Position numbers and translations under genes: made by a program. From positions 24,643,618 to 24,707,617 of the forward strand of contig CP141128.1 of assembly GCA_035236585.1 (NCBI GenBank): 64,000 nt of DNA, read 5' to 3'. This DNA comes from Warburgia ugandensis (lineage: Eukaryota; Streptophyta; Magnoliopsida; Canellales; Canellaceae). Below are positions 1,634 to 64,000 of the stretch, piece by piece; position 1 is the first letter of the stretch, and each line of letters opens with the position of its first letter. The notes below the pieces were generated by a model. It was not told the DNA's origin and did no database searches. It worked only from the letters and a program-made list of their open reading frames with translations.

Positions 1634-2190
1634 GTATTCCAGCCCAAGATCAACAGACAAATTGTCTGATAAGTATAAAAATCAATACATCAGAATCATT
1701 CATATAGAATGGTGATCCCTAAACTTATATGAACATGGGTATCATTTATTGTAAATGATGATCCCTAAGTTTGAAGTGAAATCCTATCCTCAGTATAAGA
1801 ATACCAAAATACGAGGATGATGATATAAATAAACAAGACGTCTGATAAGTAAAAGAATACTTTATATACAAGCAAGGAGGTTTGTGGTTTTTGTTTTAAA
1901 TAGGTATATGCTTGGGGATGCTATGCTAGGAGGGTTAAGAGGGTTTGGCCACTTGCTCTTCGAAATGTGATATATATGATGATACCGTGCCCAAAGAGAG
2001 GCAAAATGTTGGGTGGGGCAATTATGGGAAGGCCACCACTATGACAATCTCTCTCCCCATATAGACATGACATAGAGATGATTTTCCACATTTGGTATCT
2101 CTGGAGTATGAAAGCAGTTATCTAAGGGTGCCCTACCTTTGAAAAATGTATTACAAAATGAGTTATAAAAACAAGAGTCGTCACACTTAG
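1634..2190 (+). mobile_element. Diverged LTR remnant related to family T
   Basis: This stretch has the same run of landmarks as the family T LTR, but much diverged: a segment like GGGGATGCTATGC, then GGCCACTTGCTC, then a copy of the ACCGTGCCCAAAGAGAGGC block. It ends near 2188 with GAGTCGTCACA, which resembles the family T LTR end. It directly abuts the better-preserved LTR at 1633. I read it as an older LTR relative, truncated at the left. Its exact boundaries are uncertain. Confidence 0.45.
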
Positions 2191-2229
2191 GAACTTATGG
2201 TGCATCTAGAACAGGTTGAGAAAAGTGGG

Positions 2230-10990: not shown

Positions 10991-10995
10991 GCTCT
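10991..10995. repeat. Target-site duplication, left copy
   Basis: GCTCT directly precedes the LTR terminus at 10996 and is repeated exactly after the other terminus at 19877-19881. Five base pairs is the size made by Ty3/gypsy integrases. Confidence 0.9.
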
Positions 10996-12589
10996 TGTGA
11001 TGACTTGGGTTTTCTCATGCATTTTTAAATGCAATATCTAATTTCCTAAGGCGGGATGCATCCCTATTTGAAAACCATCTTATAAAAACCATGCAATCCA
11101 ATGGAAAACCTTTAGTTTTAAACTTTTTTTTTTTTTGAAAACCCTGGGTGTCATTTGCCTTCACAACAACCAAACTAGTTTTTGAAAAACTTCAAAAATC
11201 ATAAATGTTTTTCCTCAGGTCTATCCAGTTACAGCACACAGCCCAACTGTAAATAAACTCAAATACATGTCCAAAGGGTAGAGAGTTTACTCACATGTAT
11301 AGTTGTCTCCTTTGTTTATTCACTTGCTCATAGCACTAATATCTCCTGAGATGTCTTCTATTTGTGAGTGGAACTATCCTGAAAAATGTTAAGGATAGGG
11401 TGAGTATATACTATACTCAGTAGGAGTCTATCACTATTAGTTTTACAATGCATGCTATGTTTAAAATCATATGCTCTTTAAAACATGTGCATGTACGAAC
11501 AATCATGTTTAATATCGATATTAAAAACCACTGTCAAATCGGAATACTGACGACTTAAAGAGATAGCATAATCCAAAATGAAAGTATCATATATATCATT
11601 AACATAATAATATGCATAAGATGCTCCACTTAATCCAACTCATGGATATATGGTATGGTATGGTCGACCAACCTCATGTCATGCCATATGCATGCAAGTA
11701 AATCATCAAACCATAGGGTCCAACTATGCCCATGACCTTGCCGCCGTGTGGTCCTTGGGAACCTGAGGACACTCGGTCAAAGACTCAACGGGGCCTATGA
11801 CACGTCGACCTAGTGCCGTGACACTAGTGGTAGCCCCTTGTACCACATGCAGTCGACGTAGGGATGTTGCCCTTTTTGGGCGTGGTACCCATCCACCTAA
11901 TAGTGGTAGAGGCTGGAGGCCAACCCAAACCTCTCAGCATAGCGCCCACGAGCTTATCAGCCCAAATCATATCAGATCAAACAAACAAAAACCTCTTTCT
12001 CAAAACGTGTCCTCTTTGGGTCCCTCACAACTGCCTACCCAGCGTCCTTTGGGCACTCCAGCATCTTTTGGTAACCCTCAAGGACATGCAATCTTTCAAA
12101 AACTCAATGCTCACAAATCATACATTGTATGCAATTGTTTGCAAAACATATCTATGCATAATGTATATGCAATTATTTGCAAAACATATCTACACATAAA
12201 GCATTTATCATATGTATGCTAAATTAAGTCATGCTAAACAAGTCATATTCTTATACTTAAAACATGCATTCTTAAAACAATCATGGCTCTCTTAAAAAGT
12301 CTAGTAGCGATAGAGTACCTACCTCAAAGTCTCTTGGAGTCGCATCCTTTATCACTTTAACCCGTCCCTAGGTCTCATTTATAATCTCCTGGGTATGAAT
12401 GGATACAAGGACTCCTTATTAGTTTCATTCTATTTAGATTGCTAGATCTGCCTATTGGGTCCATGGTCCTTGCCTAATTCATTCGTCAGGGTAGATCCTA
12501 TGGTGTGGATCTACTTTCCAATAGTTAGACTCTGTAATTTATCCTCTAATCCTACCTTTAAAGTCTCAATAGGTCTGCGTGCCCCAGTT

Positions 12590-12840
12590 CCCAGGATACC
12601 CGTGTATCCTGGTTGAACCGCGACCGCCTTACGTGTGTGTGCGCCCAAAGGCCGTGCCAGGGACTGCGTTTTGCACGCGCATATGCATGCTCAAGTGACG
12701 CGCTATGACGCGCATCATAGCACAGACGCACCTTGTAGGGCACCCCGTTCACCCTGGTTGAGCCAGGACCCGTGCCTTATGTCACGCGCGCACCAAAGGG
12801 CCGCACCTGGGACAGTGTACGCACTTTCGTGCACCCGGAG
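12590..12840. repeat. GC-rich internal duplication within the LTR
   Basis: Two imperfect units follow one another (about 12590-12690 and 12738-12835). Each has CCTGGTTGA(A/G)CC, a CCTTA(C/T)GT segment, a GCGC(C/A)CCAAAGG segment and a CC(A/T)GGGAC segment. The same duplicated island is in the right LTR (18750-19000) and in inverse order at 50030-50380, so it belongs to the family. It lies downstream of the TATA box, inside the predicted transcript leader. Frames here (12558-13178) arise because CpG-rich DNA has few stop codons. Confidence 0.6.
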
Positions 12841-13312
12841 TCCATCCTTGGGACCCTGTCCCAGGCGCACATGGAGCAAGGCATCCTTGGGACGCTTGGC
12901 TCGTGCAAGGTCATCTGGAACTGGCTTGGGGCATTTTTCCAGCCAGGAACTCCGGTTGGAAAACAGCCAGATCTGGCATGGATCCTGGGCATGGGGGAGG
13001 TGAAAGGGAGAGACAAGGTAAGGAGGGTCTTACTTGTAGTGTGAGGATGCTCTTCTTCCCGATGGGTGCGCCTGCTCGCCGGAATTTTGTGTTGTCCGGA
13101 ATCTAGGAGGGAAAAACCCCAACGTCGAGCAAGATTGTAAAAGGGAAGAGAGGGGAAATGGGGAGATGGGAATGGCATGGCCAGCCTAACTTTGGCTTGG
13201 CCATTGCCGAAAAATGTAGAGGAGACAGGTTTCCAATCTTGCTGGAAACCCCAGTCTCAAATGGCTGGAAAAACGCCGAAAAACTTGGGGTTTTGGAGAA
13301 GGAGAGATGGGG

Positions 13313-13320
13313 TTTTTATA
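13313..13320 (-). promoter_or_regulatory. LTR TATA box (3' LTR)
   Basis: The minus strand reads CTATAAAAACCCC, about 396 bp from the LTR start. The same motif lies at the same place in the right LTR (19492-19499) and in the LTR at 49639. Conservation in all copies reaching this point supports a core promoter. Confidence 0.65.
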
Positions 13321-13716
13321 GCCCTGCTTATGGCGATTCCGACCTTGGCAGTGGTAGAATCCTTTAGAAAAATCGAGATCGAGGGTTTCTGGAGGGGTCT
13401 AGAGGTTGAAGACGACAGGGGGTGCCGTTATCAAAACGGCCCCCTGCGTTTTTCGTCCTTTTTTGTTTTAAACGTTTTCTGTTTGATTTCTAGAAATACC
13501 CCTATCTTTAAACGGCTGTAACTTCTTCATACGAACTCCATTTTGGGTGATTTTTGAGGCGTTGGATTCCATTTTTCGAGTAGAATCTAATGGTACTAAG
13601 TTTTCTACAAATTTCTTCATTTACTATTTTATATAAAGTGAAACATTTAACTTAGTTTATTTCCTATAGAATGTTCAATTTTCGTTAAAAATAGTGTAAA
13701 TTGCTCGGGCATTACA

Positions 13717-13730
13717 TTATAACCCCCTTA
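13717..13730 (-). other. Polypurine tract
   Basis: The minus strand reads TAAGGGGGTTATAA directly before the LTR start TGTAATG. This is the expected plus-strand primer position for the element. Confidence 0.75.
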
Positions 13731-16700
13731 AAAGAATTTCATCCTCAAAATTCCATAAATTATCTTCTTCAAGGTATTTTGGCTCTTAGATAACTTCTTG
13801 GTGGATGCACTCCCCCCTTAGGAATCAAATCTAGGCTCAACCTTAATTTATCATTTCTGTTGTTCCTTCTACAGGGCCTTACCTATAAGGGCCGCTTTCG
13901 CTGTGTACTCTGATGCATACTCCCATATGTGCCAGTTTAACAATACCGGTTTCTAACTGTAACTGATCTATCTCAAAAATCCTTAGATGCCCATACTTTT
14001 CTCATTGTGTATAGGATAGTCTCCTCGTAGGATCATGCTTCTATATTCATGTATAAATTACTCCATACTTCTTTGAGATCATATGATCTTATTTCTCCTA
14101 TTTTGAATATCATAGGATAATCCCTTTTTCTTTTTATCTTTCATCTAATGATCTCTTCATCATCCATATCTCCTTCTAATGGTTGGTTATATGTCATTAC
14201 TAAGAGTCCAAAAATTTACCTTCTTTCCATTGTGTTTAACTTTGCTTCTTATCTTTCATATTTGTCCCTAAGATACTTCAATAACTGACATGGTATCATG
14301 TGCTCTACAGCTAAACCCTTGATTAACTTCGAGTTTCAACTGTCTGTCATTTTCCATATATGACTTTATTCCCCGACCAAAGTTTCATTAAAAAATGAAA
14401 GCCAATTAGTAGCATCTTCCATCAAGGACCTTATCATATACTAAAAGTAAAATGTCCTAACTCCATATCCAGTTTCATAGTTATTGAATTCATTAAACGC
14501 CTTTCTTTGTGAGGATTTTATCCAAACTCATGTCAAATGTTAATGGTCGATTTATCACCATGGGTCACATGTTCTCGTCCAGAAGCCTGTCTCACTATTC
14601 ACATCAATTTATCATTAGGATTTTCAATAATGTTCCCATTTATGCAAGGCAAAAAGTCTCTTATTCATAACTGAGTACCCTTACTAGGTCATGGTTGAAT
14701 CCTTTATCATCATTCTCTTTGTCCTTTCTTTGCTTGATGGTTTTTCTTCATAACCTTTCAATCCAAAAGTTCTGTACTCTGTCTGGTAGGGTTAGTCCTT
14801 AGAAAATTCCTTCAATTGATTTTTTGTACTTGGTATATGCTCATAATAACTAACTATTTGTCTAAAGGAAACGTAACGTTACATCTTCACCTTATAGTGT
14901 GCTAGCCATCTCACCTTTTCTCCTTTCATCCCCTATGTCAATATATTGTGCAATCTTTTATCAAGGCTTTATTATCAATCATGCAGTCTGTATTGTCAGG
15001 AGGTATCCTCATAAGTAGTGATTTTCTCAATTCCTCAAATTTTATCCTTCAAGTGCCTCCTCATACTTTGCTTTAGCAATTCTCGTTCAATAACTACTTC
15101 ATCAAGTTATGCTGAAGCTATTAAATCATCAAATTTGAAAAACACTCAGGTAAGCATAGAATATTTTCTTAGACATAGAAAGACTTTATTTGATTACCTA
15201 TTGATCTCTTTCCAGTTATATCTTTGTCATAAGCTCAAAGGTCTCTAAAGTGATCAATACTTATTTGCCTTCTTTTTCAATCCAAGTCAGTAGTATTTTT
15301 CGGACTCAAAGTAATTTCTTCACCATGTCATGGTAATCATTAAGATTTGAAAAATCTTTCCCATTGGTTTAGATCACTTCTTATTTTTGCTCCTATCTCA
15401 GTTGCAACTGTTCTCATCAACTGACCTCATACCCTCAATTGACTTAGTTTAACAAGTACTTCTTTCCAGGAAAACTCAAGTCTAAAGACTTATAACATCC
15501 TTCTGAGTATATAACTTCGACTACTAACATACTTGATTAATTAGGGTGGGATACCTTTATTTAGTCAACCGTACTCTAAAGGTAATGACTAAATAATGGT
15601 CTTAAGATTTTTGGTCTTCCAATCTATGATAGAGAGACCTCAATTTGATCCTTGATGGTACCCTACTTGCTAAATGGACAAGTCACTATCCCGGCTTAAT
15701 TTCTTTTTCAATATACTTTATTGGCAAGGTGGGATATCACCAAATTTTCCTTTTCATGGATTATATCCATTGGTGTTCCTCCTAAGCTAATGGATCTGAT
15801 AAGAATCTAATTGATATCAAACTATTTGTAGAAGTTTAACTTCTAGTTGGTCGCCATTCTTCTTTAAAAATTTCTTGTCACATAATCTCCTGAAATTCGA
15901 TACTCTACTCAAAGTCTTAAACCCCATATGCTTCCTCTCTTTTATACTCTTTTACAATAAGATCACCAACTCACCTTGTATTATTCCTTTGCATTTGTTT
16001 GATCTTCCTTCCTATAGGATTCAAGATGATAGAATTGTATGTATCTTCATAGAGTCATGATCTTCTTCTTTTGATTATTCAATATTCATCGAATACTTAT
16101 AGTTACATCTCTATCTCTTTCTCTCTTTTCTTCAAAATCCTCATTTGGTTCTACCTGGATCAATGTCTCTATATGCTTTCTTGCATATAATTGATACTGC
16201 ATCTACTCCTTTTCTTAATAGATATGATAAACTGAATGCTTCTCAGAAATTCTAAATTGTCTTAAGATCATTGAAATCCTCAATTGCCAATAGCCTCAAT
16301 AAAATTCATACAATGTCTTAATAATGGCATTGAGATTTTGGTCATGCTATACTTTTCTTACAAGTTCATGTTAGGATTAATCTATTACTCACAGATCTAT
16401 CATCCCCAATATTATTGTCAAAATCTTTTGGTAACACTGTCGAATATAGTTCCCTATCATATTCATGTTATATTCCTCATAATATGTCACTTGTATACAT
16501 CTTCTGATTTGCTCCATAATACTCAAGTAGTTATTATTTGATATCACTTCACTTTTCATGAGACTCCAATTAAGGTATCCAAAATTGAGCTAAGTCTTTT
16601 AGGATCTATTCCTTTGTAATCTAGTATGAGTCATAGTCATCTCCTAATATTATCTTGCATTCTCATCCCTCTTAGATTATCATCAAAATTTTCTCAAAGT

Positions 16701-17146
16701 CTTTCTTTTACATCTCTTATCATACTCATATCATATCCCTTGTGATAGTATACTCATATTCTGGTATTCTTTATGATGGTAAGATATCCATCTAAGTTTT
16801 TCGATGTTCTCATCCTTGGTGAGATTACTTTATTGCAGGTCAGAACTATCTACTAACAAGTTCACTAACATCCTCACTCATCATTCTCACAATATGATCC
16901 ATATATGAGCTTTCCTCTTTGCAACAATCCTTATTGATAAGATTTAAGCCATCCAATATCTAAGTATTTGCTAGACCCATCTCCTTTTTCACCTATTTGT
17001 TTATGGTGAAATGCCTTCAGCATTAATATTGTAATCCTCAAATAGAAGTAGTCATCTCTACTACTTTCATTTATACTACTTCTTCTTGATTTTTGCTATT
17101 GTCTATGACCCTTAGACATGCTAGAGTGGCTGTGAAAGGATAAAAC
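13731..17146 (-). mobile_element. Family T interior, no recognisable gag-pol
   Basis: About 3.4 kb of AT-rich, CT-rich (plus strand) sequence. I could not recognise any retroviral domain on the minus strand. Only the end next to the polypurine tract, with the Tekay-type GATGAAATTCTTTTAAG signature, is diagnostic. Short plus-strand frames (15018-15248, 15875-16060, 16284-16541) are antisense to the element and show no domain. It could be a large retrotransposon derivative with a non-coding interior or a heavily decayed polyprotein. Its size and low complexity do not separate the two. Confidence 0.6.
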
Positions 17147-17150
17147 CTGG

Positions 17151-17162
17151 GCTCTGATACCA
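17151..17162 (-). other. Primer-binding site, tRNA-iMet
   Basis: The minus strand reads TGGTATCAGAGC, the complement of the plant initiator methionine tRNA 3' end. It lies two bases from the LTR end at 17165. This fixes the right LTR as the 5' LTR. Confidence 0.92.
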
Positions 17163-17164
17163 AC

Positions 17165-19876
17165 TGTGACGACCCAGGTTTTCTCATGCATTTTTAAATG
17201 CAATATCTAATTTCCTAAGGCGGGATGCATCCCTATTTGAAAACCATCTTATAAAAACCATGCAATGCAGCGGAAAACCTTTAGTTTTAAACTTTTTTTT
17301 TTTTTGAAAACCCTCGGTGTCATTTGCCTTCACAACAACCAAACTAGTTTTTGAAAAACTTCAGAAATCATAAATGTTTTTCCCCAGGTCTATCCAGTTA
17401 CAGCACACAGCCCAACTGTAAATAAATTCAAATACATGTCCAAAGGGTAGAGAGTTTACTCACATGTATAGTTGTCTCCTTTGTTTATTCACTTGCTCAT
17501 AGCACTAATATCTCCTGAGATGTCTTTTATTTGTGAGTGGAACTATCCTGAAAAATGTTAAGGATAGGGTGAGTATATACTATACTCAGTAGGAGTCTAT
17601 CACTATTAGTTTTACAATGCATGCTATGTTTAAAATCATATGCTCTTTAAAACATGTGCATGTTCGAACAATCATGTTTAATATCGATATTAAAAACCAC
17701 TGTCAAATCGGAATACTGACGACTTAAAGAGATAGCATAATCCAAAATGAAAGTATCATATATATCATTAACATAATAATATGCATAAGATGCTCCACTT
17801 AATCCAACTCATGGATATATGGTATGGTATGGTCGACCAACCTCATGTCATGCCATATGCATGCAAGTAAATAATCAAACCATAGGGTCCAACTATGCCC
17901 ATGACCTTGCCGTCGTGTGGTCCCCGGGCACCTAAGGACACTCAGTCATAGCCTCAACTGGGCCTATGACACGTTGATCCAGTGCCGTGACACCAGTGGT
18001 AGCCCCCTGTACCACATGCAATCGACGTAGGGATGTTGTCCTTTTTGGGCGTGGTACCCATCCACCTAATAGTGGTAGAGGCTGGAGGCCAACCCAAAGC
18101 TCTCGGTATAGCGCCCATGAGCTTATCAGCCCAAATCATATCTGATCAAACAAGCGAAAACCTTTTTTCAAAACCTGTCCTCTTTGGGTCCCTCACAACT
18201 GCCTACTCAGCGTCTTTTGAGCACTCTAGCGTCTTTTGGTAACCCTCAAGGACATGCAATCTTTTAAAAACTCAATGCTCACAAATCATACAATGTATGC
18301 AATTGTTTACAAAACATATCTATGCATAATGTATATGATATTATTTGCAAAACATATCTACGCATAAAGCATTTATCATATGTATGCAGAATTAAGTCAT
18401 GCTAAACAAGTCATATTCTTATACTTAAAACATGCATTCTCAAAAAAATCATGGCTCTTTTAAAAATTCTAGTAGTGATAGAGCACCTACCTCAAAGTCT
18501 CTTGGAGTCGCATCCTTTATCACTTTAACCCGTCCCTGGGTCTCATTTATAATCTCCTGGGTATGAATGGATACAAGGAGTCCTTATTAGTTTCATTCTA
18601 TTTAGATCGCTAGATCTACTTATTGGGTCCATGGTCCTTGCCTAATTCATTTGCCAGGTAGATCCTATGGTGTGGATCTACTTTCCAATAGTTAGACTCT
18701 ACAATTTATCCTCTAATCCTAACTTTAAAGTCTCAGTAGGTCTGCGTACCCCAGTTCCTAGGATACCCGTGTATCCTGGTTGAACCGCAACCGCCTTACG
18801 TGTGTGCGCGCCCAAAGGCCATGCCAGGGACCGCGTTTTGCACGCACATATGCATGCTCATGTGACGCGCATCATCTCATGGATGCACCTTGTAGCATGG
18901 TGCATCTCAGCTCCCAGGGCACCCCGTTCACCCTAGTCAAGCCAGGACCCATGCCTTATGTCACGCACGCACTAGAGGGCTGCACCTGGGACAGTGTATG
19001 CACTGTCGTATGCCCAGAGGCCATCCCTGGGACCCTGTCCTAGGCGCACATGGAGCAAGGCATCCCTGGGATGCCTGGCTCATGCAAGGTCGTCTGGAAC
19101 TAGCTTGGGGCATCTTTCCAGGTAGGAATTCTGGCTGGAAAACGGCTAGATCCGGCATGGATCCTGAGCCTGGGGGAGGTGAAAGGTAGAGACAAGGTAA
19201 GGAGGGTCTTACCTGTAGCCTAAGGATGCTCTTCTACCCGACGAGTGCGCTTGCTCGCCGAAATTTTATGTTGTCCAGAATCCAAGAGGGAAAAACCCCA
19301 ACGTCGAGCAAGATTGTAAAAGGGAAGAGAGGGGAAATGGGGAGACAGGAATGGCATGGCCGGCCTGACTTTGGCCTGGCCGTTGCCGAAAAATGCAGAG
19401 GAGATGGGTTTCCGATCTTACTAGAAACTCCAGTCTCAAACGGCTGGAAAAACACCAGAAAACTTGGGTTTTTGGAGAGGGAGAGATGGGATTTTTATAG
19501 CCCTGCTTATGGTGGTGCTGCCCTTGGTGGTGGTAGAATCCTCTAGAAAAATCGAGATCGAGGGTTTCTGGAGGGGTCTAGAGGTTGAAGATGACAGGGG
19601 GTGTCGTTTCTCATCCTTTTTTGTTTTAAACGTTTTCTGTTTGATTTCCAGAAATACCCCTATCTTTAAACGGCTGTAACTTCTTCATACGAACTCTGTT
19701 TTGGGTGATTTTTGAGGCGTTGGATTCCATTTTTTGAGTAAAATCTAATGGTACTATGTTTCCTTCACAAATTTATTCATTTACTATTTTAAATAAAGTG
19801 AAACATTTAACTCTGTTTATTTCCTATAGAATGTTCAATTTTCGTTAAAAATAGTGTAAATTGCTCGGGCATTACA
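17165..19876 (-). mobile_element. 5' LTR of the family T element
   Basis: 2712 bp, TGTGACGACC… to …GGGCATTACA on the plus strand. It aligns along its whole length with 10996-13716. The AT-rich two-thirds differ by only about 1% in the part I compared by eye. The GC-rich part (18760-19300) carries more substitutions, many of the kind left by loss of methylated CpG, and some small length differences. Confidence 0.9.
19492..19499 (-). promoter_or_regulatory. LTR TATA box (5' LTR)
   Basis: The minus strand reads CTATAAAAATCCC, about 380 bp from the LTR start at 19876. It corresponds to 13313-13320. Being in the 5' LTR it would be the promoter of the element. Confidence 0.65.
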
Positions 19877-19881
19877 GCTCT
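19877..19881. repeat. Target-site duplication, right copy
   Basis: GCTCT, identical to 10991-10995, directly after the LTR terminus ATTACA. Confidence 0.9.
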
Positions 19882-33535: not shown

Positions 33536-33595
<60 letters not shown>

Positions 33596-39720: not shown

Positions 39721-39999
39721 TTGATATGCCATTATTATCAACTTATATAAAACAAAATAAATTGTTGTTTACAACAAACGAGTACTATCTTTATATCTTT
39801 CTTTTTTTACAATGGAAAACAGAAACTATATGATGTAGCCCAAATGCTAATCCTAAGATAAATGATGCACAGCCAATCCTAATAGCTTGTTAACAAGCTC
39901 ATTAGATGAACTTCATTAATGTGTAGGGTAGTAGCATTTAGACCTAAATGTAGACAACTCCTTTTATCCAAGTGAGAATTACTTACTAGTTAGGTTCTG

Positions 40000-44480: not shown

Positions 44481-44515
44481 GTTGTATACAATGATTTGTT
44501 TCATTCTATACGAAG

Positions 44516-45583: not shown

Positions 45584-46284
45584 GATAATCATGTATGCCA
45601 TGTGACTTCCATTAAATAGGAAGAAAAAGAGTCAGTTGTTGTACATTAACCTACTTTAGGGTACACATCAGAAGATAACAAGGGTTTAAGCCAAACCTTG
45701 TCCCCACCTCTAGCAATACAAGAAAAATCTTTTTGGGAAAGGCAGAGTTAGCTTATACCCCTATTTTAGGACAATATCAAGGAAATAGAGGAAAAAGCTA
45801 ACTTGAATATAATGGTCATTGTTATCTCTTAATTTGGTCAAGAAAAGGACCATTCATCTCCAAATGGTCCAACAAAATGTACGGTAGTACACAAAGTTAT
45901 TGTATTACCATCACCTCAATTTTTGAGGTGGAAGAATTATATTGACTGCCATGAAATTTTGAAGATGGAAGATCATCAATATGATTCTCCATAATTAAAA
46001 ATCGTGGTGATCTTTGCTATCCTAATGTTACCACCACCAAAAAATTTCAGGTGGAGGCAATATAAAGATTACCATGAGATTCTAAAGTCGCATGACAAAT
46101 CTCACCATTTCATCTTAGGATTAGGATTAGGAAAAATAAGCTAACGCATTTAGCTATAGGTTTAGAAAGTTAGGTTAGGCCATGTTCGGCTAAATATGTA
46201 AAACTTAGCTCTTTTTAGGAGGAAACCCAGATGTTTTTCAAAACTCCATCTTCTACATCTTTCCATATAGGATCCTATGTTTTC

Positions 46285-49249: not shown

Positions 49250-51336
49250 TGTAATGTTCGAGCAATTTACACTATTTTTAACGAAAATTGCACGTTCTAT
49301 AAGAAATAAACTATGCTGAATGTTTGATTTTATTTAAAATATTAAATGAAAGCACTTTTTTATGAAACTTAGTACCATTAGATTCTACTCAAAAAATGGA
49401 ATCCAACGCCTCAAAAATCACCCAAAACGAAGTTCGTATGAGGAAGTTACAGCCGTTTAAAGATAGGGGTATTTTTGGAAATAAAATAGAAAAACGTAAA
49501 AGGACGAAAAACGCAGGGGGCCGTTTTGATAACAGCACCCCCTGTTGTCTTCAACCTCAAGAACCCTCCAGAAACACTCGATCCCGATTTTTCTGGAGGA
49601 TTCTGCCACCGCCAAGGGCAGCACCGCCATAGCATGGCTATAAAAAGCTCCATCCCCCCTCTCCAAAAACATGACTTTTCCAGTCGTTTTGACACTGGGG
49701 TTTCCGGCAAAATCAGAAACCTGTCTCAAAACCCATCCTCTGCATTTTCCGGCAACGGCCAGGCCTAAGTCAGGCTGGCCATTGCCATTTTCCTCCATGC
49801 CCTCTCTTCTTTCCAATCTTGATAATGGGGTTTACCCCTTTCTTCGAGTTTTCTGGCGAGTTGGAAGTTTCAGATAGAAGCAGGGGCTCTATCACTGGAA
49901 ATGGGCGTCCCCAAGTTGCCCAGGTAAGCCTGTTCTTCTCTCTCTCTCTTGGTACTTCCCCTTTCAGGCTAGATCTAGCATTCTCAGACATTTTCCAGCT
50001 GGATTTCCTGGCCGAAAAACGTCCCAAAACGGCTCAGACAGCCCTGCACAAGCCAGCGTGCCAAGGACGCTAAGCACCATGTGCACCTGGGACAGGATCC
50101 CAGGGATGGGCTCCGGGTGTACGACAGTGCATACATTGTCCCAGGAGCGGCCCTCGGGTGTGCGCGTGACATAGGGCACGGGTCCTGGCTCGACCAGGGT
50201 GCACGGGGTGCCCTGGGAGCTGAGACGCGCCATGATACAAGGTGCGCCCGTGCAATGATGCACGTCATAGCGCGTCACATGAGCATGCGTGTGCGCGTGC
50301 AAAAACGCGATCCCTGACACGGCCTTTAGGCGCACACGCACATGAGGGAACTGAGACACGTGGACCCAACAAGATTTTAAAGCTAAGATTAAAGGACATT
50401 TTATAGAGTTAGCTATGGAATAGTAGGTCCACATCATAGGATCCAGCCTGACAATAAATTAGGCAAGAATCAAGGACCCAATGGGCAGGGCTAGCGGTCT
50501 AATGTCTAAATAGACTGAAATTAATTAGGACTCATTGTATCTAATTATACCCAGGAGTTTATAAATGAGGCTCAGGGAAGGGTTGAGTACTAAAGGACGC
50601 GACTCCAGGAGACTTTGAGGTAGGTGCTCTATCACTACTAGACTTTTTAAAAAGAGCCATGATTGTTTTGAGAATGCATGTTTTAAATATAAGTTATATG
50701 ACTTGCACGTGATAAATGCTTTATGCATAGACATGTTTTGTAAATAATTGCATATACATTATGCATATATATGTTTTGCAAACTATTACATACATTGCAT
50801 GATTTATGAGCATTAAGTTCTTGCAAAAATTGCATGTCTTTGAGGGTTGCCAAAAGACGCTGAAGTGCCGAGGGCCAGGCAGTTGTGAGGGACCCAAAGA
50901 GGACAGGTTTTGAAAAGCGGTTTTTGGCTTATTTGATCGTACATGATTTGGGCTAGTAAGCTCGTGGGTGCTATGCCGAGGGGTTTGGGTTGGCCACCCA
51001 GCCTCTACCACTATTAGGTGGATGGGTACCACGCCCAAAAAGGGCATGTCCCTGTTTCGACTGCATGTGGTACAGGGGGCTATCACTGGTGTCACGGCAC
51101 TAGGTCAAAGTGTCATATGCCCCGTGGAGGTATATGATCCTGTGTCCCTAGGTACCCGGGGACCACACGGCAGTGAGGTCGTGGGCATAGTGGGATCCTA
51201 TGGTTTCGTGGACTTATGTGCATTGCATATGGCATGATATAAGGTTGGTCGACCATACCATACTAGATATCCATGAGTTGGATTCAGTTGAGCATCTGAT
51301 GCATATCTTTATGTTTATGATGTATGATACTTTCGA
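49250..51336 (+). mobile_element. Family T LTR, 5' three-quarters, joined to satellite
   Basis: It begins TGTAATGTTCGAGC at its true terminus inside the copy C LTR. It runs through the TATA box (49639-49647), the GC-rich duplicated island (about 50030-50380) and the AT-rich part to GATACTTTC near 51334. The last ~570 bp of the LTR are missing. Its first ~300 bp are the segment homologous to the satellite that begins at 51337. Neither an interior nor the right flank of its target is present, so solo LTR and full element cannot be told apart. Confidence 0.85.
49639..49647 (+). promoter_or_regulatory. LTR TATA box (family T, copy at 49250)
   Basis: GGCTATAAAAAGCTCC, 389 bp from the LTR start, equivalent to 13313-13320 and 19492-19499. 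Confidence 0.65.
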
Positions 51337-52317
51337 AATTTGAAGTCCCATAACTCCTTCAAAAGAAATCTATTTTCTGTGTTCCTCAGCTGGTTGGATT
51401 CCATTTTTTGAGTACTATCTAATGGTTTCAGCTTTAATTTGAAATTATTATGCTATTAAAAGGTATACTTCTTAAAGACGCGAAACCTGATGGCGTAATA
51501 GTAAAATTTTAGGGTTGTTACACCAGTAAGCCTCCCCAATATCAAAATTGCCCCATTAGGTTTCTATGTTTTTTTTTCACTTTTAATTAATGAAATAGCC
51601 CTCACTTTGAAGTCCCATAACTCCTTCATACAGACTCTATTTTCTGCATTCTTTGTCATGTAGGATTCATTTTCTGAGTATTATCTAATGGTTTGAGTTT
51701 CAATTCCAAACTATTATGCAAATAAAATATATACTTCTTGAAAGCTCATGACATGATCATGGAATAGTAAAATATTATGGCTGTTACACCAGTGAGCCCT
51801 GCCATCATCGAAATGGCTCCTCCAGGTTTCTATGTTTTTTTTTTCACTTTTAATTATTGAAATAGCCCTGACTTTGAAGTCCCAAAACTCCTTCATACAA
51901 ACACTATTTTCCGCATTCATTAGCTAGTTGGATTCCATTTTCTGAGTACTCTCTTACCGTATCAGCTTTAATTTCAAATTATTATGCTATTAATAGATAT
52001 ACTTTTTAAATACTCGTAACCTGATCATGGAATAGTAAAATTTTAGGGTTGTTACACCAGCGAACCTTACTAATATCAAAATTGCCTCATGAGGTTTCTA
52101 TGTCTTTCTTTTCACTTTTAATTAATGAAATTGCCCTCGCTTTGAAGTCCCATAACTCCATCATACTGACTCTATTTTCTACATTCCTTGTCACGTAGGA
52201 TTCCATTCTCTGAGTATTACCTAAAGGTGTCAGTTACAATTCCAAATTATTATGCAATTAAAGGATATACTTCTTCAAAGCTCATGACCTGATCATGGAA
52301 TAGTAAAATATTAAGGC

Positions 52318-54889
52318 TGTTACACTAGCAAGCCTTGCCATTATCAAAAACGCTCCTCAAGGTTTCTTGGGTTCTTTTTCAACTTTAATTAATGAAATAG
52401 CCCTGAATTTGAAGTCCCATAACTCCTTCAAACGAAATCTATTTTCTGTGTTCCATGGCTGGTTGGATTCCAATTTCTGAGTGCTATCCAACGGTTTTAG
52501 CTTTAGTTTGAGATTATTATGCTATTAAAAGGTATACTTCTTAAATAATCGTAACCTGATCATGGAATAGTAAATTTTAGGGCTGTTACACCAGTAAGCC
52601 TCGCCAATATCAAAATTGCCCCATGAGGTTTCTATGTTTTTTTTTCACTTTTAATTAATGAAATTGCCCTGACTTTCAGGTCCCATAACTCCTTCATATA
52701 GACTCTATTTTCGGCATTCCTTGTCACATAGGATTCTATTTTATGAGTATAATCTAATGGTTTCAGTTTCAATTTCAAACTATTATGCAATTAAAAGATA
52801 TAGCTCTAGAAAGCTCATGACCTAATCATGCAAATGTAAAATATTATGGTTGTTACACCCGCGAGCCCTGCCACTATAGAAATGGCTCCTCGAGGTTTCT
52901 ATGTTTTATTTTCACCTTTAATTAATGAAATAACCCTGAATTTGAAGTCCCATAACTCCTTCAAACAAAATCTATTTTCTGCATTCCTTGTCTGTTTGGA
53001 TTCCATTTTCTAAGTACTACCTAATGGTTTCACGTTTAATTTAAAATTATTATGCTATTAAAAGGGATACTTCTTAAATACACAAAACCTGATCACGAAA
53101 TAGGAAAATTTTAAGGTTGTCACACTGGTGAGCCTCGCCAATATCGAAATTCCCCCATGAGGTTTCTATGTTTTTTTTTCACTTTTAATTAATGAAATTG
53201 CCCTGACTTTGAGGTCCCATAAGTCCTTCATATAGACTCTATTTTCTGCATTCCTTATCACGTAGGAATCTATTTTATGAGTATTATCTAATGGTTTCAG
53301 TTTCAATTCCAAACTATTATGGAATTAAAAGATATACTTCTTAGAAGCTCATGACCTGATCATGGAATAGTAAAATATTATGGTTGTTACACCAGCGAGC
53401 CTTGCCATTATAGAAATGGCTCCTTGAGGTTTATATGTTTTGTTTTCCCCTTTAATTAATGAAATAGCCCTGAATTTGAAGTCCCATAACTCCTTCAAAC
53501 GAAATCTATTTTCTGTGTTCCATGGCTGGTTGGATTCCAATTTATGAGTGCTATCCAACGGTTTTAGCTTTAGTTTGAGATTATTATTCTATTAAAAGGT
53601 ATACTTCTTAAATAATCGTAACCTGATCATGGAATAGTAAAATTTTAGGGTTGTTACACCAGTAAGCCTCGCCAATATCAAAATTGTCCCAGGAGGTTTC
53701 TATGTTTTTTTTTTTCACTTTTAATTAATGAAATTGCCCTAAATTTTAGGTCCCATAAGTCCTTCATATAGACTCTATTTTCTACATTCCTTGTCACGTA
53801 GGATTCTATTTTATGAGTATAATCTAATGGTTTCAGTTTCAATTTCAAACTATTATGCAATTAAAAGATATACTTCTTGAAAGCTCATGACCTGATCAAG
53901 GAATAGTAAAATATTATGGTTGTTACACCAGCGAGCCCTCCCATTATCGAAATGGCTCCTTGAGGTTTCTATGTTTTGTTTTTCCCTTTAATTAATGAAA
54001 TAACCATGAATTTGAAGTCCCATAACTCCTTCAAACGAAATCTATTTTCTGTGTTCTTTGGCTGGTTGGATTCCATTTTTTTAGTACTATCTAATGGTTT
54101 CAGCTTTAATTTGAAATTATTATGCTATTGAGAGGTATACTTCTTAAATACGCGAAACCTAATCGCATAATAGAAAAATTTTAGGGTTGTTACACCAGTA
54201 AGCCTCGCCAATATCAAAATTGCCCCATCAGGTTTCTATGTTTTTTTTTCACCTTTAATTAATGACATAGCCCTGACTTTGAAGTTCCATAACTCCCTCA
54301 TGCGGACTCTATTTTCAGTATTCCTTGGCTCGTTGGACTCCATTTCTTAGTATTATCTAATGGTTTCAGTTTTAATTCCAGCGAGCCCTGTCATTATAGA
54401 AATGGCTCCTCGAAGTTTCTATGTTTTGTTTTCACCTTTAATTAATGAAATAGCCCTGAATTTGATGTCCCATAACTCCTTCAAACGAAATCTATTTTCT
54501 GCATTCCTTGGCTGTTTGGATTCAATTTTCTAAGTACTATCTGATGGTTTCAGGTTTAATTTGAAATTATTATGCTATTAAAGGAGATACTTCTTAAATA
54601 CTCAAAACCTGATCATGGAATAGTAAAATTTTAAGGTTGTTACACCGGTGAGCCTCGCCAATATCGAAATTGACCATGAGGTTTCTTTGACTTTTTTTTC
54701 ACTTTTAAGTCCCATAACTCCTCCATACGGACTCTATTTTCAGCATACCTTGGCTCGTTGGATTCCATTTCTTAGTATTATCTAATGGTTTCAGTTTTAA
54801 TTCCAAATTCTTATGCAATTAAAAGATATACTTCTTGAAAGCTCATCACCTGATCATGGAATTATAAAATATTAAGGTTGTTACACCAG
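52318..54889 (-). repeat. Array segment duplicated within the satellite, copy 1
   Basis: Unit for unit this segment matches 56353-58380, including rare variants such as the GTTACACCCGCGAGC start at 52852 and the GTCACACTGGTG start at 53119. The second copy lacks two units present here (about 53652-54188). Confidence 0.75.
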
Positions 54890-56352
54890 CGAGCCCAGCC
54901 ATTATCGAAATGGCTCCTAGAGGTTTCTATGTTTTTTTCTTCACCTTTAATTATTGAAATAGCTTTGACTTTGAAAGCTCATGACCTGATCATGGAATAG
55001 TAAAATATTAAGGCTATTACACTAGCAAGCCCTGCCATTATCAAAAAGGCTCCTCAAGTTTTCTTGGTTTCTTTTTCACCTTTAATGAATGAAATAGCCT
55101 TGGCAATAAACTCCCATAACTCCTTCACACGAATTCTATTTTCAGCATTGCTTGGCTGGTTGGATTCCAATTTCTGAGTGCTATCCAATGGTTTTAGCTT
55201 TAGTTTGAAATTATTATGCAATTAAAAGGTATACGTCTCAAATACTCATAACCTAATCATGAGATAGTAAAATTATAGGGTTGTTACACCAGTAAGCCTC
55301 GCCAATATGGAAATTCCCCCATGTGGTTTCTATGTTTTTTTTTTCACTTTTAATTAATGAAATTGCCCTGACTTTCAGGTCCCATAACACCTTCATATAG
55401 ACTCTATTTTCTGCATTCCTTGTCACATAGGATTCTATTTTATGAGTATTATCTAATGGTTTTAGTTTCAATTCCAAACTATTATGCAATTAAAAGATAT
55501 ACTTCTTGAAAGCTCATGACCTGATCATTGAATATAAAAATATTATGGTTGTTACACCAGCGAGCCCTACCATTATCGAAATGGCTCCTTGAGGTTTCTA
55601 TGTTTTTTTCTTCACCTTTAATTATTGAAATAGCCCTGACTTTGAAGTCCCATAACTCCTTCATACGAACTCTATTTTCTGCATTCCTTGACTGGTTGGA
55701 TTCCATTTTTTGAGTACTCTCTAACGATTTCAGTTTAATTCCAAACTATTATGCAATTAGAATATATATTTCTTGAAAGCTCATGACCTGATCATGGAAT
55801 AGTAAAATATTATGGTGGTTACACCAGCGAGCCCTCCCATTATCGAAATGGATCCTCGAGGTTTCTATGTTTTTTTCTTCACCTTGAATTATTGAAATAG
55901 CCCTGACTTTGAAGTCCCAAAACTCCTTCATACGAACTCTATTTTCCGCATTCCTTGGCTGGTTGGATTCCATTTTTTGAGTACTCTCTAATGATTTCAG
56001 TTTTAATTCCAAACTATTATGCAATTAAAATATATATTTCTTGAAAGCTCATGACCTGATCATGGAATAGTAAAATATTATGGTTGTTACACCAGCGAGC
56101 CCTGCCATTATCGAAATGGCTCCTCGTGGTTTGTATGTCTTTTTTTTCACTTTTAATGAATGAAATTGCCTTGACTTTGAAGTCCCCTAACTCCTTCATA
56201 CAGACTCTATTTTCTGCATTCCTTGGCTCGGGGGATTCCATTTTCTGAGTAATATCTAATGGTTTTAGTTTTAATTCCAAATTATTATGCAATTAAAGGA
56301 TACACTTCTTCAAAGCTCATGACCTGATCATGGAATAGTAAAATATTAAGGC

Positions 56353-58380
56353 TGTTACACTAGCAAGCCTTGCCATTATCAAAAACGCTCCTCGAGGTTT
56401 CTTGGGTTCTTTTTCAACTTTAATGAATGAAATAGCCTTGGCATTAAAGTCCCATAACTCCTTCATACGAATTCTATTTTCAGCATTCCTTGATTGGTTG
56501 GATACCAACTTCTGAGTGCTATCCAACGGTTTTAGCTTTAGTTAGAAATTACTATGCTATTAAAAGGTATACTTCCTAAACACTCGTAAGTTGATCATGG
56601 AATAGTAAAATTTTAGGGCTGTTACACCAATAAGCCTCGCCAATATCAAAATTGCCCCATGAGGTTTCTATGTTTTTTTTTTAACTTTTAATTAATGAAA
56701 TTGCCCTGACTTTCAGGTCCCATAACTCCTTCATATAGACTCTATTTTTGGCATTCCTTGTCACGTAGGATTCTATTTTATGAGTATAATCTAATGGTTT
56801 CAGTTTCAATTTCAAACTATTATGCAATTAAAAGATATAGTTCTAGAAAGCTCATGACCTAATCATGCAAATGTAAAATCTTATGGTTGTTACACGCGCG
56901 AGCCCTGCCACTATAGAAATGGCTCCTCGAGGTTTCTATGTTTTATTTTCACCTTTAATTAATGAAATAGTCCTGAATTTGAAGTCCCATAACTCCTTCA
57001 AACAAAATCTATTTTCTGCATTCCTTGTCTGTTTGGATTCCATTTTCTAAGTACTACCTAATGGTTTCACGTTTAATTTAAAATTATTATGCTATTAAAA
57101 GGGATACTTCTTAAATACACAAAACCTGATCATGGAATAGGAAAATTTTAAGGTTGTCACACTGGTGAGCCTCGCCAATATCGAAATTCCCCCATGAGGT
57201 TTCTATGTTTTTTTTTCACTTTTAATTAATGAAATTGCCCTGAATTTGAGGTCCCATAAGTCCTTCATATAGACTCTATTTTCTGCATTCCTTGTCACGT
57301 AGGAATCTATTTTATGAGTATTATATAATGGTTTTAGTTTCAATTCCAAACTATTATGGAATTAAAAGATATACTTCTTGGAAGCACATGACCTGATCAT
57401 GGACTAGTAAAATATTATGGTTGTTACACCAGCGAGCCTTGCCATTATAGAAATGGCTCCTTGAGGTTTCTATGTTTTGTTTTCCCCTTTAATTAATGAA
57501 ATAGCCCTGAATTTGAAGTCCCATAACTCCTTCAAATGAAATCTATTTTCTGTGTTCCATGGCTGGTTGGATTCCAATTTCTGAGTGCTATCCAATGGTT
57601 TTAGCTTTAGTTTGAGATTATTATGCTATTAAAAGGTATACTTCTTAAATAATCATAACCTGATCATGGAATAGTAAAATTTTAGGGCTGTTACACCAGT
57701 AAGCCTCGCCAATATCAAAATTGCCCCATCAGGTTTCTATGTTTTTTTTTCACCTTTAATTAATGACATAGCCCTTACATTGAAGTCCCATAACTCCCTC
57801 ATGCGGACTCTATTTTCAGTATTCCTTGGCTCGTTGGACTCCATTTCTTAGTATTATCTATTGGTTTCGGTTTTAATTCTAGCGAGCCCTGTCATTATAG
57901 AAATGGCTCCTCGAGGTTTCTATGTTTTGTTTTCACCTTTAATTAATGAAATAGCCCTGAATTTGATGTCCCATAACTCCTTCAAACAAAATCTATTTTC
58001 TGCATTCCTTGGCTGTTTGGATTCAATTTTCTAAGTACTATCTGATGGTTTCAGGTTTAATTTGAAATTATTATGCTATTAAAGGAGATGCTTCTTAAAT
58101 ACTCAAAACCTGATCATGGAATAGTAAAATTTTAAGGTTGTTACACCGGTGAGCCTCGCCAATATCGAAATTGACCATGAGGTTTCTTTGACTTTTTTTT
58201 CAATTTTAAGTCCCATAACTCCTCCATACGGACTCTATTTTCAGCATACCTTGGCTCGTTGGATTCCATTTCTTAGTATTATCTAATGGTTTCAGTTTTA
58301 ATTCCAAATTCTTATGCAATTAAAAGATATACTTCTTGAAAGCTCCTCACCTGATCATGGAATTGTGAAATATTAAGGTT
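56353..58380 (-). repeat. Array segment duplicated within the satellite, copy 2
   Basis: The partner of 52318-54889. The offset is about 4036 bp on the left and 3501 bp on the right, the difference being two monomers. It shares the shortened unit (54378 and about 57880), in which a deletion joins the middle of one unit to the GCGAGCCCTGTC of the next. Confidence 0.75.
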
Positions 58381-61300
58381 GTTACACCAGCGAGCCCAGC
58401 CATTATCGAAATGGCTCCTAGAGGTTTCTATGTTTTTTTCTTCACCTTTAATTATTGAAATAGCCCTGACTATGAAATCCCAAAACTCCTTCATACAAAC
58501 TCTATTTTCTGCATTCCTTGGCGGGTTGCATTCCATTTTTTGAGTACTCTGTAATGATTTTAGTTTTAATTCCAAACTATTATACAATTAAAATATATAT
58601 TTCTTGAAAGCTCATGATCTGATCATGGAATAGTAAATTATTATGGTTGTTACACCAGTGAGCTCGGCCGTTATCGGAAAGGATCCTCGAGGTTTGTATG
58701 TCTTTTTTTTCATTTTTAATGAATGAGAAGTCCCTTAACTCCTTCATATAGACTCTATTTTCTGCATTCCCTGCATCGTGGGATTCCATTTTCGGAGTAA
58801 TATCTAATGGTTTTAGTTTCAATTCCAAATTATTATGCAATTAAAAGACATACTTCTTGAAAGCTCATGACCTGATCATGGAATAGTAAAATATTAAGGC
58901 TATTACACTAGCGTGCCCTGCCATTGTCAAAAAGGCTCCTCAAGCTTTCTTGGTTTCTTTTTCACCTTTAATGAATGAAATAGCCTTGGCAATAAAGTCC
59001 CGTAACTGCTTCACACGAATTCTATTTTCAGCGTTGCTTGGCTGGTTGGATTCCAATTTCTGAGTGCTATCCAGCGGTTTTAGCTTTAATTAGAAATTAT
59101 TATGCTATTAAAAGGTATACGTCTTAAATACTCATAACCTGATCATGGAATAGTAAAATTTTAGGGTTGTTACTCTAGTAAGCCTCGCCAATATCAAAAT
59201 TGCCCCATGTGGTTTCCATGTTGTTTTTTCACTTTTAATTAATGAAATTGCCCTGACTTTCAGGTCCCATAACTCCTTCATATAGACTCTTTTTTCTGCA
59301 TTCCTTGTCACGTATGATTCCATTTTATGAGTATTATCTAATGGTTTCAGTTTCAATTCCAAACTATTATGCAATTAAAATATATACTTCTGGAAAGCTC
59401 ATGACTTGATCATGGAATATAAAAATATTATGGTTGTTACACTAGCGAGCCCTGCCATTATTGGAATGGCTCCTAGAGGTTTCTATGTTTTTTTCTTCAC
59501 CTTTAATTATTGAAATAGCCTTGACTTTGAAAGCTCATCACCTGATCATGGAATAGTAAAATATTAAGGCTATTACACTAGCGAGCCCTGCCATTATCAA
59601 AAAGGCTCCTCAAGCTTTGTTGGTTTCTTTTTCACCTTTAATGAATGAAATAGCCTTGGCAATAAAGTCCCATAACTCCTTCACACGAATTCTATTTTCA
59701 GCATTGCTTGGCTGGTTGGATTCCAATTTCTGAGTGCTATCCAACGGTTTTTGCTTTAGTTTTAAATTATTATGCAATTAAAAGGTATACGTCTTAAATA
59801 CTCGTAACCTGATCACGTAATAGTAAAATTTTAGGGTTGTTACACCGGTAAGCCGCGCCAATATCAAAATTGCCCCATCAGGTTTCTATGTTTTTTTTTT
59901 TCACTTTTAATTAATGACGTAGCCTTGACTTTGAAGTCCCATAACTCCTTCATACGGACTCTATTTTCATCATTCCTTGGCTCGTTGGATTCCATTTCTT
60001 AGTATTATCTAATGATTTCAGCTTTAATTTGAAATTATTATGCTATTAAAAGCTATTCTTCTTAAATACGCGTAACCTTATCATGGAATAGTAAAATTTT
60101 AGGGTTGTTACATGAAGAAGCCTCGCCAATATCGAAATTGCCCCATGACGTTTCTATGTTTTTTTTTTTCACTTTTAATTAATGAAATTGCCCAAACTTT
60201 CAGGACCCATAACTCCTTCATATAGACTCTGTTTTCTACATTCCTTGTCACGTAGGATTCTATTTTATGAGTATTATCTAATGGTTTCAGTTTCAATTCC
60301 AAACTATTATGCAAATAAAAGATATACTTCTTGAAAGCTCATGACCTGATCATGGAATAGTAAAATATTATGGTTGTTACACCAGCAAGCCTTGCCATTA
60401 TCGAAATGGCTCCTTGAGGTTTCTATGTTTTGTTTTCCCCTTTAATTAATGAAATAGCCCTGAATTTGAAGTCCCATAACTCCTTCAAAGGAAATCTATT
60501 TTCTGTGTTCCTTGGTTGGTTGGATTCCATTTTTTGAGTACTATCTAATGGTTTCAGCTTTAATTTGAAATTATTATGCTATTGAGAGGTATACTTCTTA
60601 AATAGGCGAAACTTGATCGCGTAATAGTAAAATTTTAGGGTTGTTACACCAGTAAGCCTCGCCAATATCAAAATTACCCCATCAGGTTTCTATGTTTTTT
60701 TTTTCACTTTTAATTAATGACATAGCCCTGACTTTGAAGTCCCATAACTCCTTCATGCGGACTCTATTTTCAGTATTCCTTGGCTCGTTGGACTCCATTT
60801 CTTAGTATTATCTAATGGTTTTGGTTTTAATTCCAAATTATGATGCAATTAAAAGATATACTCTCTGAAAGCTCATCTCCTGATCATGGAATTCTAAAAT
60901 ATTAATGTTGCTACACCAGCGAGCCCTGCCATTATCCAAATGGCTCCTCGAGGTTTCTATGTTTTTTTTTCCACTTTTAATTAAAGAAATTGCCCTGACT
61001 TTGAAGCCCCATAACTCCTTCATACAGACTCTATTTTCTGCATTCCTTGTCACGTTGGATTCCATTTTCTGAGTATTATCTAATTGTTAGAGTTTCAATT
61101 CCAAACTTTTATGCAATTAAAATATATACTTCTCGAAAGCTCATCACCTAATCATGGAATTGTAAAATATTAAGGTTGTTACACCAGCGAGCCCTGCCAT
61201 TATCGAGATAGCTCCTTGAGGTTTCTAATTTTTTTCACTTTTAATTAATGAAATAGCCATGACTTTGGAGTCCCATAACTCCTTCATATGGACTCTATTA

Positions 61301-61439
61301 TCTGCATTCGTTGGCTGTTTGGATTCCATTTTTTGAGCACTATCTAGTGGTTTCAGCTTTAATTTGAACATATTATGCTATTAAAAGATAAACTACACAA
61401 ATACTCGTAACCGAATCATGGAACATTAAAATTTTTAGG

Positions 61440-64000
61440 TTGTTACACCGGTGAGCCTCGCCAATATCAAAATTGAACCGTGAGCTTTCTTGGTTTTCTT
61501 TCACTTGTAATTAATGAAATAGCTTGACTTTGAAGACCCATAACTCTTTCATACGAACTCTATTTTTTGCATTCCAATGCTGGTTGGATTTCATTTTCAA
61601 AATACTATCTGATAGTTTCAACTTTAATTTGAAATTGTTATGCTATTAAAAGATACAATTCTTGAAAGCTCATGACCTAATTATGGCATAGTAAAATAAT
61701 AAAGTTGTTCCACCAGCGAGCCCTGCCATTATCGAAATGGCTCCTTGAGGTTTCTAGTTTTTTTCACTTTTAATTAATGAAATAGCCATGACTTTGGTGT
61801 CCCATAACTCCTTCATACGGACTCTATTTTCTGCGTTCCTTGGCTGGTTGGATTCCATTTTTTGAGCGCTATCTAGTGGTTTCAGCTTTAATATGAAATT
61901 ATTATGCAATTATAATATATACTTCTTAAAACCACATGACCTGATCATGGTATAGTAAAATATTAAGGTTGTTACACCAGCGAGCCCTGCCATTATTGAA
62001 ATGGATCCTTGAGGTTTCTAGTTTTTTTCACTTTTAATTAATCAAATAGCCATGACTTTGAAGTCCCATAACTCCTTCATACAGACTCTATTTTCTGCGT
62101 TCCTTGGCTGGTTGGATTCCATTTTTTCAGCGCTATCTAGTGGTTTCAGCTTTAATTTGAAATTATTATGCAATTATAATATATACTTCTTAAAACCTCA
62201 TGACCTGATCATGGTATAGTAAAATATTAAGGTTGTTACACCAGCGAGCCCTGCCATTATTGAAATGGATCCTTGAGGTTTCTAGTTTTTTTCACTTTTA
62301 ATTAATCAAATAGCCATGACTTTGAAGTCCCATAACTCCTTCATACAGACTCTATTTTCTATGTTCCTTGGCTTGTTGGATAAAATTTTATGACTACTAT
62401 CTAATGGTTTCTACTTTAATTTGAACATATTATGCTATTGAAAGATATACTTCTTAAATACTTGTAACCGGACCAAGGAACAGTAAAATTTTATGGTTGT
62501 TACACCGGTGAGCCTTGCCAATATCAACATTGACCCATGAGGTTTCTGGGTTTGTTTTTCACTTGTATTTAATGAAATAACCTGACTTTGAAGTCCCATA
62601 ACTCCTTCATACGAACTCTATTTTTTGCGTTCCATGGCTGGTTGGGTTTCATTTTCGGAATACTATCTAATGGTTTCAGCTTTAATTTGAAATTATTATG
62701 CTATTAAAAGATATACTTCTTGAAAGCTCCTGACTTGATCATGGCCTTGTAAAATATTAAGGTTGTTACACTAGCGAGCCCTACCATTATCGAAATGGCT
62801 CTTTGAGGTTTCTAGTTTTTTTCACTTTTAATTAATGAAATAGCCATGATTTTGGTGTCCCATAATTCCTTCATACGGACTCTATTTTCTGCGTTCTTTG
62901 GCTGGTTGGATTCCATTTTTTGAGCGCTATCTAGTGGTTTCAACTTTAATTTGAAATTATTATGCAATTATAATATATACTTCTTAAAACCTCATGACCT
63001 GATCATGGTATAGTAAAATATTAAGGTTGTTACACCAGTGAGCCCTGCCATTATTGAAATGGATCCTTGAGGTTTCTAGTTTTTTTCACTTTTAATTAAT
63101 CAAATAGCCATGACTTTGAAGTCCCATAACTCCTTCATATAGTCTCTATTTTCTATGTTCCTTGGCTTTTTGGATTCCATTTTACGTTTGCTATCTAATG
63201 GTTTCTCGCTTTAATTTGAACATATTATGCTATTGAAAGATATACTTCTTAAATACTTGTAACCGGACCAAGGAACAGTAAAATTTTATGGTTGTTACAC
63301 CGGTGAGCCTTGCCAATATCAACATTGACCCATGAGGTTTACGGGTTTTTTTTTTCACTTGCATTTAATGAAATAACCTGACTTTGAAGTCCCATAACTC
63401 CTTCATACGAACTCTATTTTTTGCGTTCCATGGCTGGTTTGATTTCATTTTCTGAATACTATCTAATGGTTTCAGCTTCAATTTGAAATTATTATGCTAT
63501 TAAAAGATATACTTCTTGAAAGCCCACGACACGATCATGGCCTTGTAAAATATTAAGGTTGTTACACCAGCGAGCCGTGCCATTATCGAGATGGCTCCTT
63601 GAGGTTTCTAATTTTTTTCACTTTTAATTAATGAAATAGCCATGACTTTGTAGTCCCATAACTCCTTCATACGGACTCTATTTTCTACGTTCCCTGGCGG
63701 TTTGGATTCCATTTTTTGAGCGCTATCTAGTGGTTTCAACTTTAATTTGAACATATTATGCTGTTGAAAGATATACTTCTTAAATACTTGTAACCTGACC
63801 ATGGAACATTAAAATTTTATGGTTGTTACACCGGTGAGCTTTCCCAATATCAAAATTGACCCATGAGGTTTCTGGGTTTTTTTTTCACTTGTATTTAATG
63901 AAATAGCTTGACTTTGAAGACCCATAACTCTTTCATACGAACTCTATTTTTTGCATTCCAATGCTGGTTGGATTTCATTTTCAAAATACTATCTGATAGT
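61440..64000 (-). repeat. Distal subarray with three-unit period
   Basis: Here the pattern becomes A-B-B with a period near 795 bp. The rare string ACCGGACCAAGGAACAG occurs at about 62467 and 63262, 795 bp apart, and the neighbouring B units carry the same CTAGTTTTTTTCAC variant. The variant unit with CATTCCAATGCTGG occurs at about 61573 and 63955. Units are slightly shorter (about 262-266 bp). Confidence 0.7.

Follow-up and report, generated by a model that had tools for sequence, protein, structure and literature searches.

When a satellite array lies beside retrotransposon long terminal repeats (LTRs) that resemble its repeat unit, did the array come from an LTR and, if so, from which part of it? 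The question is raised by a stretch of the Warburgia ugandensis genome, 64,000 nucleotides (nt) of contig CP141128.1 (positions 24,643,618 to 24,707,617; the whole stretch is referred to here as the window), in which a tandem array of ~267-bp units abuts a truncated LTR of a retrotransposon family that we call T. The original prediction was that the U3 upstream region of the family-T LTR had been amplified into the satellite, the unit being LTR nt 1-300 cut at the LTR end. Shared ancestry of ~170 bp was retained in the analysis described here; the derivation of the unit as family-T nt 1-300 was not. The array is probably an LTR-derived satellite, and we consider it reasonably likely that its unit contains a ~170-bp U3 segment of an LTR related to, rather than identical with, the family-T copies. 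The locus would represent a further case of promoter-upstream LTR DNA probably turned satellite, and otherwise a fair but ordinary example.

The satellite array and the core it shares with LTRs

Tandem Repeats Finder delimited the array at 51339-63994 (period 267, 47.3 copies, 12.66 kb, head-to-tail), and a 268-bp profile model derived from 27 clean units found 52 segments in it with nhmmer, including 44 full-length monomers, in agreement with the 267-bp tandem array first described at 51337-64000. The array has the long head-to-tail arrangement of a single unit that is expected of a satellite, and no inverted matches were detected inside it at E 1e-5 in a self-comparison. Mean pairwise identity among the 44 full monomers was 0.818. 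A motif close to the unit end assigned these to two subfamilies, type a (n = 28) and type b (n = 16), which are interleaved along the array and show identities of 0.83 within type a, 0.86 within type b and 0.80 between the two; one motif-a monomer groups among type b in the core tree described below. Larger repeats were also found, spanning 3500 columns (86.9% identity, offset 3499), 2510 columns (90.7%, offset 4034) and 2514 columns (86.6%, offset 534, equivalent to a dimer). The array is therefore structured as single units, dimers and multi-kilobase blocks, and these repeated blocks point to growth through unequal exchange or gene conversion. Two 241-bp monomers (54645-54885 and 58146-58386) have a common 25-column gap (model 179-203) and lie 3501 bp apart inside the 3.5-kb block repeat. 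The array probably lacks a coded function and may behave as a structural heterochromatic repeat.

When the monomer profile was compared with the non-array part of the window, E values below 1 were obtained only at the three T LTRs (T1, T2 and T3; Table 1), the next match having an E value of 1.8. The homologous core covers ~170 bp and runs collinearly between monomer positions 77/87-257 and LTR nt ~105-294. Aligned globally, it gave z scores of 12.6 (T1), 10.2 (T2) and 12.1 (T3), and identities to T1, T2 and T3 were 123/154, 112/141 and 117/153 for the type-a consensus and 117/158, 105/144 and 113/156 for type b. The profile alignment also bore out the description of common blocks, with CATTAGAT, ATGGAATCCAAC, CGTATGA, AGGG.TATTT and GCC-TTT-GATAA-GGC occurring in a single order in monomer and LTR. 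As predicted, the match ends before the TATA box: it stops at LTR nt 294, and the TATA box TATAAAAA lies at nt 397 in T1, leaving a gap of ~100 bp that is also present in T3. Each of the three LTRs holds the core in single copy, with one profile match per LTR, and no match to the monomer profile was found in the T internal region.

The core homology exceeds what chance would produce, and these alignments give strong support to common ancestry of ~170 bp of the unit and the U3 upstream region. Both sequences are AT-rich (array GC ~34%), which could in principle yield low-complexity similarity; however, none of 500 dinucleotide shuffles scored as high as the core for any of the three LTRs, and we reject chance as its source and assign this explanation a negligible probability, although the left part of the unit is not separated from shuffles in the same way. 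In a core tree of the 44 full monomers and the three T LTRs, LTRs grouped apart from monomers with 100/100 support, and the branch between the two clades was 0.38 changes per column long, indicating that none of the T copies in the window is the direct parent of the satellite. Its likeliest parent would be a different LTR lineage, either older or sister to family T.

Table 1 Features of the window discussed in the text (T LTRs, their satellite-like cores, the array and its junction).
Feature	Coordinates	Strand	Description
3' part of further T-type LTR	1..1635	+	85% to T1/T2; 87.7% to T3 over 1020 columns
T1, 3' LTR of T element	10996..13716	-	91.6% to 17165-19876; TG...CA ends, AGAGC on outer flank
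LTR core in T1	13423..13604	-	homologous to monomer 87-257; nhmmer E 3.3e-20
T internal region	13717..17164	-	3448 bp; TGGTATCAGAGC adjoins T2, purine-rich tract adjoins T1; no coding domain found over 14564-17164
T2, 5' LTR of T element with T1 as 3' LTR	17165..19876	-	without 21 bp at palindrome
LTR core in T2	19637..19767	-	homologous to monomer 82-212; nhmmer E 3.3e-16
T3, related LTR	49250..51336	+	cut at LTR nt ~2087 where array begins; 77% to T1 and T2
LTR core in T3	49354..49536	+	homologous to monomer 77-256; nhmmer E 6.1e-18
Junction of LTR T3 and array	51328..51346		short common AATTTG-type sequence; array begins inside monomer, model position 185
Satellite array	51337..64000	-	units ~267 bp, minus-strand reading TGTAACA...; open at window end

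The unit edge and competing origins

A special case of an LTR origin, which we hold only tentatively and at somewhat less than even chances, is that the whole unit corresponds to LTR nt 1-~300, cut at the terminus. An LTR element would have inserted at nt ~300 of a like LTR, placing nt 1-300 in tandem with the joint at the LTR end, and unequal exchange would have followed. Any phase of a tandem repeat can be chosen as the start of its unit, and the statement that the unit begins at the LTR end thus needs a phase-aware random control. End-to-end alignment of the monomer with LTR nt 1-~300, as originally claimed, was not established against family T, the single LTR family compared, since the left 97 bp did not rise above shuffled sequence. 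The comparison with shuffled controls that had been proposed therefore divides the unit, upholding the core and failing for monomer 1-97 when set against LTR nt 1-123/125, where shuffles scored as high or higher in 169/1000 (T1), 524/1000 (T2) and 76/1000 (T3) cases. Corresponding values for the subfamily consensuses were 93, 277 and 141 (type a) and 159, 187 and 149 (type b) per 1000. Similarly, a hidden Markov model of the left monomer part found no T LTR.

Evidence at the terminus itself points both ways. The TGTAA at the unit start lies at an approximately collinear distance, 97 bp ahead of CCATTAGAT versus 123-125 bp in the LTRs, and the first 27 bp of the unit were equalled by only 1-16/1000 dinucleotide shuffles across six comparisons; however, once TGTAA was removed this match became ordinary (82, 95 and 194 of 2000 as good for type a; 188, 176 and 228 for type b). 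For both subfamilies, the best LTR start for the monomer start was nt 1 in T1, whereas nt 114 was better than nt 1 in T2; in T3, nt 1 was best for type a and nt 114 was better for type b. An alternative monomer phase, 178, matched LTR nt 1-28 equally well or better. In a right-anchored profile alignment the best left end fell elsewhere than nt 1 in all three LTRs. Free-end scores were ordinary, being equalled by 12/60, 18/60 and 34/60 shuffles, although few shuffles reached the score obtained at nt 1 (2/60, 5/60 and 3/60). When the first 8, 12 or 22 columns were scanned without gaps, nt 1 did not stand out, as 587-4774 of ~102,650 positions scored equally well. The fairest terminus test compared random 28-mers from the window, placed in the same collinear phase range, with T1, and 26/1500 (type a) and 35/1500 (type b) were as good (~0.02); neither the T copies nor the subfamilies are independent of one another. 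Homology of the left part could be hidden, because this part diverges faster within family T (T1-T3 identity 106/123 over LTR nt 1-123 versus 153/162 in the core). Taken together, the terminus evidence is weak and mixed, and a unit edge on the LTR terminus, which the original prediction took as given, is suggestive only, resting on TGTAA and the weak ~27-bp match. We regard as unlikely the full version of this history, in which the unit is exactly nt 1-~300 of a sister-family LTR, born by self-insertion near nt ~300 with integrase setting one unit edge. If a source LTR exists whose end coincides with the unit edge, nested self-insertion becomes a testable birth route for satellites.

The reading that we prefer is broader: a U3 segment from an older or sister LTR lineage would have passed from LTR to satellite, unequal exchange or gene conversion would have expanded the array, and a rearrangement would later have joined it to the truncated T3 LTR. 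The same pre-promoter position of the core in three LTRs, its single copy there and the precedents discussed below make LTR to satellite the more likely direction. Weighing against this reading, an LTR origin is unproven for monomer 1-97, given the shuffle results above, and the direction is unpolarised by the present data because a tree of two clades gives no root. A doubtful, though quite possible, alternative is that ~170 bp of LTR U3 was combined with ~97 bp of other DNA and then amplified, with TGTAACA at the joint by chance. Consistent with such a chimera, the left 97 bp found no good match in the window outside the array, the best nhmmer alignment having an E value of 0.59 (38164-38136), even though LTR nt 1-60 is well kept within family T (55/60 identical between T1 and T3), while the first ~27 bp, weakly LTR-like at the right place, speak against it. 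Quite improbable, in our assessment, is the reverse direction, in which an ancestor of family T took a piece of a pre-existing satellite into its LTR. Sharing is demonstrated for the core only, and satellite uptake by mobile elements has been proposed for pDv and TCAST, as cited in PMC3648361. Nothing in the core tree suggests that the present array was the donor of the LTR core, and capture from present monomer diversity is disfavoured since the LTRs fall outside all 44 monomers (100/100), although an older capture may have occurred. The argument first raised against LTR uptake of a satellite depended on the exact unit edge.

Family T, the junction and the remainder of the window

The T1-T2 element has the features of an LTR retrotransposon. 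Its paired LTRs with TG...CA ends are flanked on both outer sides by AGAGC (10991-10995 and 19877-19881), a target-site duplication, and its inner LTR borders carry TGGTATCAGAGC and AAGGGGG, which we take to be the primer-binding site and purine tract; the internal region opens with GTTGGTATCAGAGC, presumably the primer site for initiator-methionine tRNA that is usual in plant elements. Six read-through pieces covering 14564-17164, the part of the internal region included in the scan, matched no Pfam domain at E up to 1, and no coding gag-pol, as would be expected of an autonomous element, was found in that span. Ahead of the array there are 22 stop-to-stop frames of at least 110 aa, of which 10 were scanned, none of those in the T internal region, with a weak PHD_4 match (E 0.051, 2726-3061) as the single result. 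Family T looks non-coding because no Pfam domain was found in the scanned pieces, and is what we would presumably call LARD-like. Of the LTR intervals assigned at the outset, T1 and T2 stand as family-T LTRs, while T3 is a related LTR but a truncated one, 2087 nt long versus ~2720 nt for a full LTR and with the final ~585 bp absent. T2 (~19604-19612) lacks 21 bp of a palindrome that is kept in T1 (13420-13445) and T3, and in T1 this 21-bp stretch has ACG at each edge.

T3 lies on the plus strand, whereas it is the minus strand of the satellite that corresponds to the LTR, such that the array is inverted relative to T3. This opposite orientation suggests that a rearrangement, probably end joining, set the two side by side. 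Growth of the array in place from T3 was rejected, as the array is inverted to T3 and begins inside a monomer.

Several further candidates were considered and set aside. Fold z scores at LTR nt ~270-296 were -3.58 in T1, -2.63 in T3, -1.74 in type a and 0.56 in type b. In a set of 16 full monomers (out of 44) and two of the three LTRs, 18 sequences in all, 72.2% of hairpin cells were paired versus 71.5% after shuffling, and the covariation score was 0.099 versus 0.070 (16/500 shuffles as high), with both-sided change at one pair only, in two sequences, and a score of 0.096 after a slide by -3. The covariation was taken as no support for a conserved hairpin, and type b does not fold. The monomer has an AA/TT autocorrelation peak at 135, and its interpretation as an old dimer of ~134-bp halves was rejected because the halves were not alike beyond shuffles (23/200 and 51/200). 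Pattern scans for relatives returned 0, 1 and 0 stretches in three scans of viral_contigs and one stretch in a single scan of genome_contigs; the two stretches aligned with the profile along no more than 29 and 19 positions (E values of 0.0052 and 0.014, respectively) and were judged to be chance. A plasmid search with T3 LTR nt 1-351 gave no match.

The array and LTRs are less CpG-depleted (observed/expected 0.51 in the array and 0.62-0.65 in T1/T3) than positions 20000-48000 (0.18) and the T internal region (0.24). Elsewhere, the window contains a ~2-kb repeat family in both orientations (23423-25388, 38091-40413 and 44078-46140; 72-74% alike), a direct repeat of ~1.3 kb (41341-42665 and 47858-49159; 77%) and a perfect CT microsatellite of 27.5 copies (33539-33593).

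Comparison with known retroelement-derived satellites

Satellites from LTR or U3 parts are known, with RPCS, sobo and CRM1TR/CRM4TR described in PMC3648361, and the plant examples among these (CRM1TR/CRM4TR and sobo) agree with the initial remark that satellites from retroelement parts are known in plants. Origin from an LTR segment, with a list of mechanisms, is also covered in PMC12628747, and tandem arrays of Cassandra elements are treated in PMC7215508. According to PMC9659126, terminal inverted repeats, LTRs and other non-coding parts are prevalent as satellite sources, although a preference for particular parts is not conclusively established. Among the matches listed in a narrow literature search, none reported that an LTR terminus had set the edge of a satellite unit, which is not proof of absence, and no papers were found for five array/LTR strings in literature text.

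The Ogre/Tat-derived satellites FabTR and PisTR-A resemble the array described here in being retrotransposon-derived plant satellites (PMC7004042, where Ogre-derived satellites are treated, and PMC9659126). They differ in having grown from tandem repeats already within the 3' untranslated region (UTR) of the element, whereas the T LTRs carry the segment once and no seed array was found inside the T element. RPCS, from the rodent Ctenomys, is similar in its short unit (a U3-like 348-bp monomer) related to an LTR U3; however, as described in PMC3648361, it involves a retroviral-type LTR, and a TATA box and polyadenylation signals are reported within its monomer, whereas the homology here ends ~100 bp before the TATA box. 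The potato satellite sobo is likewise a plant satellite with sequence common to gypsy LTRs, but has a 4.7-kb unit of several parts (PMC3648361). CRM1TR and CRM4TR of maize, like the array in this window, are plant tandem repeats from part of a retrotransposon LTR, and nested insertions are mentioned in PMC3648361 as a possible start. Their units arise from LTR-UTR segments, with CRM1TR averaging 696-819 nt and up to 97% like its parent (PMC3648361), whereas the unit described here matches the U3 part only, with a core 72-80% like family T.

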